Below are positions 20,101 to 55,009 of a DNA stretch of 64,000 nucleotides, piece by piece. The notes under the pieces are model-generated. The model did not search any database and was not told the DNA's origin. It saw nothing but the letters and a program-made list of their open reading frames with translations. Position numbers and translations under genes: made by a program. Position 1 is the first letter of the stretch, and the number at the start of each line of letters is the position of its first letter. This DNA is from Pseudomonadota bacterium (GTDB lineage Bacteria; Pseudomonadota; Gammaproteobacteria; Xanthomonadales; Xanthomonadaceae), in NCBI GenBank assembly GCA_021821195.1, contig JAKACT010000002.1, positions 310,001 to 374,000 of the forward strand, read 5' to 3'.

Positions 20101-20300
20101 CGCCGCCGGTGCCTTGCGGGATTCTCCGGATCCCCCCTGTTCCGCGTCTCGCGGGCACCGGCGCTTTCCTTTCCGGCTGGCCTTGCCGCCCTCGATCTAC
20201 TGGATCGACGTGCACGCGGATGTGGCCGGAAACAAAGTGGGGGCCGGCTGTCCCCCGACAACCGGCCCCCGTAGCGTCCCCGTCCTGCGCGTAATCGGCC
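20101..20300 (+). other. structured intergenic region upstream of mnmG, possible small RNA or leader
   Basis: The space between the dehydratase and mnmG (19960-20416) has no convincing protein gene. It contains a 10-bp perfect stem CGCCGGTGCC/GGCACCGGCG (20104-20113 with 20154-20163) enclosing a smaller GGGAT/ATCCC hairpin and followed by CTTTCCTTTCC. A second 9-bp stem GGGGGCCGG/CCGGCCCCC lies at 20239-20247 with 20262-20270. A weak TAATCT box just before the first stem would place a transcript start near 20101. The remaining bases up to mnmG show nothing recognisable. Function is unknown. Confidence 0.4.
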
Positions 20301-20416
20301 CCTGTTCAGTCCGATCATCGCCAACTGGCGTGCCAGGGCGGGTGCTGATCTATCCAAAGCATGAACCGTGCCAACCCTGCCCAGCCGCGCCCTGCGCGGC
20401 GCGCGATAATGCCCGC

Positions 20417-52817: not shown

Positions 52818-54191
52818 TTACAGGATGTAGCGGCTCAGGTCCGGATCCTGCGCCAGTTCGCCCAGCTGGGCGTCGACGTAGGCGCGGTCGACGATGACGC
52901 TGCCGCCCTTGTCCGGGGCCTCGAAGCTCAGCGATTCCAGCAGCCGCTCCAGCACCGTGTGCAGGCGACGTGCGCCGATGTTTTCCTGGCGCTCGTTGAC
53001 GTGCGCGGCGATTTCGGCGAGGCGGTCGATCGCCTCGGCCTCGAAGCGCAGCGTCACGCCCTCGGTCTGCATCAGTTCGACGTACTGCCTGGTCAGCGCT
53101 GCCCTGGGTTCGGTCAGGATGCGGACGAAATCGTCCTTGCCCAGCGCCGACAGTTCCACCCGGATCGGGAAGCGGCCCTGCATTTCCGGAATCAGGTCGG
53201 ACGGCTTGGCGAGATGGAACGCGCCGCTGGCGATGAACAGGATGTGGTCGGTCTTGACCGGGCCGTACTTGGTGCTGACCGTGCTGCCTTCCACCAGCGG
53301 CAGCAGGTCGCGCTGCACGCCTTCGCGCGACACGTCCGCGCCCATGCCCTCGCTGCGCTTGGCGACCTTGTCGATCTCGTCGATGAACACGATGCCGTGT
53401 TGCTCGCAGGCTTCGATGGCGGCCTCGCGCACGTCGTCCTCGTTGACCAGCTTGCCGGCCTCTTCCTCGATCAGCAGCGGCCGCGCGGCCTGGATGGTCA
53501 TGCGCTTCTTGTGGGTCTTGCCGCCGGAGATCTGGCTGAACATCTGCCGCAGCTGCTGGCCCATTTCCTCCATGCCCGGCGGGGCCATGATATCCACGCC
53601 GATGTTCATGCTGAGGTCGAGTTCGATCTCGCGCGCGTCCAGTTCGCCGGCGCGCAGCTGCTTGCGCAGCTTCTGCCGGGTGGACGATTCCTGCGCCGAC
53701 GGCTCCGCGCCGATGTCGATGGTGGTGGTCTGCGCCGGGTTGAAGCCGAAGCCGGGTGCGGTTTCGCGCTTGGGCAGCAGCGCATCGAGGATGCGGTCCT
53801 CGGCGCGCTCCTCGGCCTGCGTGCGCACGCGCTGCTTGGCCTGGCCGCGGTAGAGCTTGACCGCGGTGTCGGCCAGGTCGCGGATGATCTGCTCCACGTC
53901 CTTGCCGACGTAGCCGACCTCGGTGAAGCGGGTGGCTTCCACCTTCACGAACGGCGCGTTGGCCAGCGTCGCCAGCCGGCGCGCGATTTCCGTCTTGCCG
54001 ACGCCGGTGGGGCCGATCATCAGGATGTTCTTCGGCATCACCTCGTTGCGCAGTTCGGGCGCGAGTTGCGCGCGCCGCCAGCGGTTGCGCAGGGCGATGG
54101 CCACCGCGCGCTTGGCGCCGTGCTGGCCGATGATGTGGCGGTCGAGTTCCGCGACGATCTCGCGCGGGGTCATGGAGGAGGAGTCGGTCAT
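52818..54191 (-). CDS. hslU: ATP-dependent protease ATPase subunit HslU
   Basis: 457 residues, matching the family. HslU (ClpY) unfolds substrates and feeds them to the HslV peptidase. It has [25 protein letters not shown], the Walker [16 protein letters not shown], an intermediate domain (~110-240), [13 protein letters not shown] as Walker B, sensor-2 [15 protein letters not shown] and the C-terminal DPDLSRYIL that docks into HslV. GAAGGA lies eight bases before the start. It follows hslV across a 266-base spacer that holds two large hairpins. Confidence 0.98.
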
Positions 54192-54207
54192 CGGAAATCC
54201 TTCACGA

Positions 54208-54286
54208 GGCACTCCCGGCGGGGAGGCACCATCAACAAAGCGAGTATCGGGGAGCGACTTGATGGGGCCTCCCCGCCGGGAGTGCC
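54208..54286. repeat. large stem-loop 1 in the hslV-hslU spacer
   Basis: Perfect 20-bp arms (54208-54227 and 54267-54286, beginning GGCACTCCCGG) enclose a 39-base loop. The loop part 54238-54263 is the exact reverse complement of 54394-54419 in stem-loop 2. It ends 17 bases before the hslU start codon, just ahead of its ribosome-binding sequence. Confidence 0.9.
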
Positions 54287-54370
54287 CGCGGCAAAGCTTC
54301 AACAAGCCGCGTCTGTGGTGAAACTTCACATGGCGTTAGAAATGTGCGCAGCCGCTGGAGGTCCGTCGCG

Positions 54371-54449
54371 GCCCACCCGCCCGGGCCAATCCGATCAAGT
54401 CGCTCCCCGATACTCGCTTGGTTGATCGGATTGGCCCGGGCGGGTGGGC
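54371..54449. repeat. large stem-loop 2 in the hslV-hslU spacer
   Basis: Perfect 28-bp arms (54371-54398 and 54422-54449, beginning GCCCACCCGCCC) enclose a 23-base loop. It starts nine bases after the hslV stop on the minus strand. Core 54394-54419, spanning the loop and stem edge, complements the loop of stem-loop 1 over 26 bases. The arm sequences differ completely from those of stem-loop 1. Between the two lies a smaller CGCGGC/GCCGCG hairpin (54287-54311). Confidence 0.9.
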
Positions 54450-54457
54450 TGGATAGG

Positions 54458-55009
54458 TCAAAGCGTCTCGACCACGATGTTGCGGTTGGTGTAGATGCAG
54501 ATGTCACCGGCGATGCCCAGTGCTTCGGTGGCGATGGCTTTTGCATCCAGTTGGGTATGCGCCAGCAGCGCGCGCGCCGCGGACAGCGCGTACATGCCGC
54601 CGGAACCGATTGCGATCAAACCGTCTTCCGGCTCGATCACGTCGCCGGTGCCAGAAATCACCAGCGAGGTGTCGGCATCGGCCACCGCCAGCAGCGCCTC
54701 GAGCTTGCCGAAGCGGCGCTCGGTGCGCCAATCCTTGGCCATCTCCACCGCCGCGCGGGTAAGCTGGCCGTGCTTCTCGAGCTTGGCTTCGAACAGCTCG
54801 AACAGGGTGAACGCATCGGCGGCGGCGCCGGCGAAACCGGCCAGCACGCGGCCGTCCTTGCCCAACCGGCGCACCTTGCGCGCATTGGCTTTCATCACCG
54901 TGTGGCCCAGCGTCACCTGGCCGTCGCCGGCAATGACCACCTGGCCGTTGCGGCGCACCGAACAGATGGTGGTGGCGTGGAACACGTTGGGGTTCTGGCT
55001 GGGATCCAT
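54458..55009 (-). CDS. hslV: ATP-dependent protease peptidase subunit HslV
   Basis: 183 residues. HslV (ClpQ) is a proteasome-like threonine peptidase. Catalytic Thr13 follows a 12-residue prosequence ([12 protein letters not shown]), as in Xanthomonas homologues, rather than standing directly after Met as in E. coli. The family blocks [24 protein letters not shown] and [10 protein letters not shown] are present. hslU follows. The ATG at 55009 matches this prosequence; the alternative upstream start adds an unconserved leader. Confidence 0.97.

Follow-up and report, generated by a model that had tools for sequence, protein, structure and literature searches.

Two hairpins in the hslV–hslU spacer

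The DNA analysed here (the window, 64,000 nucleotides) comes from a genome that we assign to Thermomonas on the basis of its kin, and it contains hslV (54458..55009, minus strand) followed downstream by hslU (52818..54191, minus strand, start codon at 54191-54189). Two long hairpins lie in the spacer between these genes. The one adjoining hslV (54371..54449, minus strand), 8 nt beyond the stop codon, has a perfect 28-bp stem: its 28-nt arms, 54371-54398 and 54422-54449, are 100% complementary and separated by a 23-nt loop (54399..54421, CCAAGCGAGTATCGGGGAGCGAC on the minus strand), and the strand bearing the loop core is sense to hslV–hslU. The one adjoining hslU (54208..54286, plus strand), which ends 16 nt before the start codon, also has 28-nt arms (54208-54235 and 54259-54286; one mismatch, 96% complementary) around a 23-nt loop (54236..54258, CAAAGCGAGTATCGGGGAGCGAC on the plus strand), with its core strand antisense to the operon. 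Between the two hairpins lies the segment 54287..54370, and the cores converge, 160 bp apart.

The first-pass annotation of this region described two perfect inverted repeats with unrelated stems and mutually complementary loops. The complementarity is exact: read from the sequence, 54238-54263 is the reverse complement of 54394-54419. The stem given as a perfect 20 bp is in fact 28 bp with one mismatch. The two stems do differ, as they do across the family described below; an alignment of the two inverted copies nonetheless extends past the loop, reaching 73% over 71 nt with the loop counted in.

Folded as RNA, the spacer reaches -165.1 kcal/mol, versus a mean of -112.96 for shuffled sequences (z -9.2; 0 of 200 shuffles equalled it), and the hairpins folded singly as DNA gave z-scores of -8.7 to -11.2 on either strand. 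Neither is followed, on either strand, by the T run of an intrinsic terminator. Across the whole window, the only Rfam matches above gathering threshold were asX1 and a tRNA, neither of them at the hairpins, and the element itself matched Rfam models (mostly miRNAs) weakly and far under their thresholds. The match to asX1, a Xanthomonadaceae sRNA, lies at 20234-20344 (77.2 bits).

The hairpins belong to a dispersed family

In the genome that contains the window, the 20-mer AGCGAGTATCGGGGAGCGAC was found 13 times, with no further occurrences at one to three mismatches and none for a reversed control; all 13 form the loop of a long hairpin, and the stems differ among them. A covariance model of the element, R1, matched 17 places in this genome and 128 across 21 of 25 Thermomonas genomes, and the 20-mer with up to three mismatches was likewise found in 21 of the 25. 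The four genomes that lack the element are G015, G016, G017 and G023. A few weak R1 matches are doubtful and were not relied on (G018:C22, which reads as a GTAG REP, and G011:C1:679485). In G009, an intact copy with the second loop class described below was found by covariance model.

Among the 369 genomes of our class sample, the exact 20-mer was present in one, its own, and within Lysobacteraceae the exact 18-mer core was present in 21 of 296 genomes from 6 of 54 genera, with Thermomonas supplying 12. A degenerate scan of Lysobacteraceae matched 29 of 296 genomes, with two matches for the reversed control; dropping G213 and G084, each with a single match and no R1 match, leaves 27 of 296 genomes, again in 6 of 54 genera. 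The first-pass annotation had named absence of the core from relatives among the findings that would count against its reading, and relatives do carry it. Scanning named genomes returned at least 112 stretches, and among the matches listed were Thermomonas, Luteimonas, Lysobacter and Zeimonas arvi (Burkholderiales) as well as two Burkholderiaceae MAGs, several MAGs from Gammaproteobacteria and a single Sumerlaeia MAG, which may be misbinned since its copy matches those of MAG.332. The exact core recurs beyond Lysobacteraceae in scattered beta- and gammaproteobacteria. Two of the stretches returned, in a Woeseiaceae MAG (L100) and an Armatimonadetes MAG (L158), match the loop but have no hairpin and were taken as chance. 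No viral contig contained the degenerate 21-mer, and plasmid and phage collections gave weak partial matches only, at the sensitivity used.

Neighbouring copies less than 400 bp apart, usually separated by 89-190 bp, are arranged as 35 diverging, 9 converging and 8 tandem pairs. Together with the dispersal of the copies, these inverted pairs support the earlier suggestion of a REP-like element pair.

A constant loop on changing but paired stems

From 230 distinct copies with the loop class found in the window (class 1), we kept the 211 short-form hairpins with six or more matches among their inner 8 pairs and set 19 aside. Every loop position except 2, 3 and 23 is 97-100% one base in these hairpins, and the two arms pair in 71-99% of cases at positions 1-24, versus 29-66% when arms are swapped between copies, a swap after which the closing pair still forms in 85%. 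Within 52 diverse copies, a set selected for good pairing, double changes were seen in 22 of 22 stem pairs, and the covariation score was 1.174 compared with 0.206 for shuffled and at most 0.211 for slid arms.

Orthologous copies give the same picture. For 187 same-orientation ortholog pairs (not independent of one another, and with at least 15 of 22 pairs matching in both members), identity was 84.1% in the flanks, 70.6% in the stem and 94.6% in the loop, the last figure overstating loop conservation because our searches favoured similar loops (up to three mismatches); the stems had undergone 933 double versus 364 single-arm changes. Where hslV–hslU spacers could be delimited and read without a loop filter, they contained an intact or near-intact loop, another repeat, or nothing.

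Arm length over 258 copies has a median of 24 bp and a range of 5-36. The feet of these copies are rich in G and C, no foot position exceeding 0.76 for a single base and the commonest base always being G or C. Over roughly 20-36 bp, the sequence of the stem is free while its pairing is kept. In some lineages the copies have near-identical stems, as in Lysobacter concretionis (G228), with 32 degenerate-loop matches.

Loop orientation and strand asymmetry

Sorting the 121 Thermomonas places by flanking sequence gave 25 groups, of which all but three (L192, L233 and L263) have a hairpin, leaving 22. Most of the larger site groups contain both loop orientations: the two occur 8 and 10 times at hslV–hslU (10 sense, 8 antisense) and 7 and 5 times at lpxA–lpxB, with 7 and 0 at hemE, and the 72 copies at six co-directional operon sites divide into 32 sense and 40 antisense. 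Flipped copies at infC–rpmI sit on plainly homologous stems, and at orthologous loci the loop occurs either way round on homologous stems. Of the invertible segment suggested earlier, inversion is borne out for the loop, and we saw no sign of it in the stretch between the two hairpins. Inversion of a loop between its arms is also seen in related species in the flip-flop of plastid DNA hairpins, although the plastid loop, unlike that of the element, is not known to be a conserved dispersed sequence.

These comparisons also bear on what the pair might do for hslV and hslU. With 26 nt of mutual complementarity, the two loops might be imagined to kiss within one transcript as a device specific to hslV:hslU, but two hairpins were seen in this spacer only in our genome (G000) and G020, with one in the other element-bearing spacers read, and the same loop recurs at 21 other Thermomonas sites; we consider this arrangement extremely improbable. 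The more general idea that an RNA switch adjusts the hslV:hslU ratio gains no support, given the 22 Thermomonas sites, the antisense orientation of 40 of the 72 operon copies and the species whose spacer has no element (about 26, 4 and 0 nt in G009, G017 and G023), and a role of the hairpins as a dedicated hslVU regulator is not supported. GTAG-type REPs fill the same spacer in G011, G012, G015 and G016. The G019 spacer (L277) is long and has short tandem repeats, CCCGAAT/CCCGTCT, in place of the hairpin, and the match to hslV in G014 is broken into three pieces (L288-L290), which suggests frameshifts or assembly errors.

Either loop orientation on homologous stems, and the many double changes, would fit an exchange between arms, and one could suppose that the hairpins are neutral palindromes in which arm-to-arm template switching maintains complementarity and flips a loop that spread recently. 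Such palindromes should show no strand asymmetry, but the stem mismatches do. Read on the loop strand, G.T outnumbers A.C by 61:13 in Thermomonas (101 of the 121 places contributed, and repeats within a site entered the tally only once) and by 124:29 over all taxa after clustering (binomial p 1.7e-15); loops with A at position 9 gave 60:6, not deduplicated. At the same loci, 124 other inverted repeats gave 62:71, although these controls have no defined strand and so exclude a general asymmetry only. With this bias, and with loops so much more similar than stems at orthologous sites (94.6% versus 70.6%), we regard neutral maintenance as distinctly unlikely.

The Thermomonas bias is also as strong in antisense (24:5) as in sense copies (15:3), implying that the folding of the loop strand, and of that strand only, is constrained independently of the operon transcript. 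This bias speaks for a folded single DNA strand; alternatively, the active form may be an antisense RNA of its own. The claim that a loop conserved on changing stems reflects selection on structure is upheld by the dispersal of the copies, their strong covariation and this strand-specific G.T bias.

Architecture of the apex and loop classes

The conserved part of the element, presumably the part that is recognised, is a 23-nt apex of roughly C-M-R-AGCGA-R-T-N-N-CG-K-GG-AGCGA-M. Across 260 hairpins, the two loop position pairs with the highest mutual information are 9x15 (GG in 204, AT in 48, AA in 5 and others in 3) and 3x23 (A/C in 235, G/A in 20 and others in 5). The RNA fold of the spacer pairs G5-C20 and C6-G19 within the loop; with DNA energy parameters the loop folds otherwise, without this apex, and the RNA fold alone gives both G-C pairs. 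On our model, G7.A18, A8.G17 and A4.G21 could be sheared pairs, and the geometry assigned to 9x15 and 3x23 is likewise putative. The apex would then be closed by G5-C20 and C6-G19 with sheared G.A pairs on either side of these, and R9.K15 and R3.M23 would be non-canonical pairs.

There are two main loop classes. The second, CMAAGCGAATNNCGTGGAGCGAC, was found via the covariance model and outnumbers class 1 in several Lysobacter genomes, G228 among them. A long form of the element has an additional hairpin after GGGGAGT; its sequence was matched at 6 places in 5 of 25 genomes, and the extra hairpin itself was seen at five of them (L200, L201, L205, L217 and L255).

Individual copies vary further. 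In our own genome, the lpxA–lpxB spacer (L407; G000:C4:602405- and 602521+) has adjoining class-1 and class-2 hairpins. In the infC–rpmI spacer of G002 (L319), two added hairpins enlarge the apex, and the outer stem resembles the element stem of other species. By eye, the MAG.332 copies (L075, L116, L121 and L166) look like palindromes of about 170 bp with further long outer inverted repeats, in the manner of a fold-back MITE with this apex at its centre.

Genomic context

In the genome containing the window, copies often lie close after stop codons between co-directional genes, namely infC–rpmI, lpxA–lpxB, adk–mpl, pabB–pabC and hslV–hslU, and others lie between convergent genes. Spacers occupied in other genomes include atpA–atpG and tuf–rpsJ (two MAGs each), ilvN–ilvC, leuB–asd and rpoZ–gmk, the genes being named by inspection of their sequences; the gene clusters shared by several loci also resemble housekeeping genes by eye. 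The adk–mpl spacer is without the element in G001 and G010. Among the 25 of 158 Pfam families listed for 105 neighbouring proteins (out of 426 ORFs within 2.5 kb of copies), there was no transposase.

This placement raises the question of whether the hairpin works in the operon transcript and sets the expression of the flanking genes, be it by stabilising the mRNA, by attenuation or by binding a protein. Its frequent position soon after stops between co-directional housekeeping genes (infC–rpmI, lpxA–lpxB, adk–mpl, atpA–atpG and tuf–rpsJ) would suit such a role, as would the G.T wobbles and non-canonical loop pairs and the two loop G-C pairs of the RNA fold; for GTAG REPs, frequent GT pairing has itself been taken to hint that they function as RNA (PMC3733652). 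An element acting in the transcript is hard to reconcile, though, with antisense orientation in 40 of 72 operon copies and a G.T bias equally strong in these, with the existence of hslV–hslU and adk–mpl spacers that have no element, and with the lack of any Rfam family at gathering threshold. On balance we think an RNA role of this kind unlikely, if still worth serious consideration.

One site lies within a gene. In an SDR gene (L007:932-1870) and its orthologs (L011, L202, L226, L241 and L245), from six Thermomonas genomes, the element is in frame in 6 of 6 copies with no stop, and both loop orientations occur, giving peptides such as INQASIGERL or SLPDTR accordingly.

Relationship to known repeat families

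GTAG REPs, as described in PMC3733652, are marked at the foot by the tetranucleotide GT(A/G)G and combine a stem of 5-13 bp with a loop of 2-20 bp. The element is like them in consisting of short extragenic palindromes with inverted doublets, lineage variants and folding of one strand, and in occupying some of the same Thermomonas spacers; it differs in its median arm of 24 bp, its invariant 23-nt apex and its lack of a consistent tag. Among the 258 copies, GT(A/G)G was found on the core strand at 36 left and 9 right feet (shuffled means 30.4 and 10.8) and on the opposite strand at 9 and 27 (20.4 and 46.5). The CGTC repeats (neisserial dRS3, rickettsial RPE-4 and RPE-6) are given in that paper stems of 8-9 bp, loops of 4-5 bp and a CGTC tag (PMC3733652). 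They too are dispersed palindromes, some of them intragenic, but few copies of the element have a CGTC foot: on the core strand we counted 20 left and 16 right (shuffled means 12.5 and 20.5), the left-foot value of 20 of 258 being a mild excess (8 of 300 shuffles as high) that is far from a defining tag.

RPE palindromes of Rickettsia, according to PMC10969869, insert in frame into protein genes and form families of about 150 bp that are often intragenic. The element resembles them where it lies in frame in the SDR gene, and differs in being mostly extragenic and in its constant loop. Integron attC sites, in turn, are recombination substrates that fold as a single strand, with a variable apex and a conserved foot (the R box, with GTT). 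A folded single strand would be common to both, but the foot of the element is weakly conserved and shows no R box. Literature searched by topic and by sequence string, with subscription journals mostly outside its reach, yielded no description of the element, and one human-cancer paper contained a matching string.

We also considered whether the element could be one of the known REP types, GTAG (or CGTC), with a RAYT to mobilise it. Its palindromic, mostly extragenic copies, inverted doublets and spacers shared with GTAG REPs agree with this, as do the mild left-foot excess of CGTC and the strand-specific folding that RAYTs need, as stated in PMC8266576. Most copies have no foot tag, however, and genes of the Y1-transposase family (PF01797) do not track the element. 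Such genes were found in 18 of 25 Thermomonas genomes and in 8 of 17 named bearing genomes; G006 has 7 R1 matches and no PF01797 gene, and the genes occur without the element in G015, G016 and G023. PF01797 was also not found in the bearing genomes G005 and G008 (the latter 86% complete), nor in 9 of the 17 named bearing genomes, whose completeness is unstated. The Y1 genes of two Lysobacter genomes adjoin GTAG REPs, and the R1 match beside one Y1 gene (L308) is in fact a REP pair. Membership in such a family therefore appears very improbable, and for want of co-occurrence, together with the GTAG REPs beside the two Lysobacter genes, we rejected RAYT as the mobiliser. After the Y1 gene of our own genome (L188) stands an inverted repeat other than the element, GGGGACGGAGGGAATTAAG..., and no R1 match lies within the 3.3-kb locus of this gene.

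A free stem with a probably recognised apex

The element is a real and unusual repeat family, best filed among the dispersed bacterial palindromes. The hairpins of the hslV–hslU spacer are probably two copies of a dispersed REP-like family in which the apex is recognised and the stem is free in sequence so long as it pairs. The active form would be a folded single DNA strand, the apex of which may be bound by a trans-acting, strand-specific factor whose specificity varies by lineage, much as RAYT transposases act on folded REPs, although our analysis turned up no such factor. A RAYT-like recognition step could have spread copies in some lineages, Lysobacter concretionis and Luteimonas among them, and recombination or template switching between the arms might flip the loop. 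A difficulty for this reading is that the old Thermomonas copies, were they no more than passive products of transposition, should have decayed; selection on each copy is implied.

More tentatively, we propose that this is a new apex-recognition system unlike known REPs, in which a horizontally scattered, lineage-tuned factor reads the 23-nt non-canonical DNA tip, the stem does no more than present it, and individual copies are selected while their stems drift; the balance of our judgment is somewhat against this stronger version.

Both described superfamilies of short bacterial palindromes have a tag at the foot and family-specific stems; the element reverses this plan, with an invariant apex on a free stem, and so amounts to a natural experiment that separates sequence recognition from folding. 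The strand test used here, which compares G.T with A.C mismatches in sense and antisense copies, lends itself to other families of dispersed hairpins. For annotation, the repeat calls for caution: it can lengthen called ORFs or overlap with them, and one gene translates it in frame. For the Lysobacteraceae themselves, the element suggests an activity, so far undiscovered, that binds or cuts single strands.
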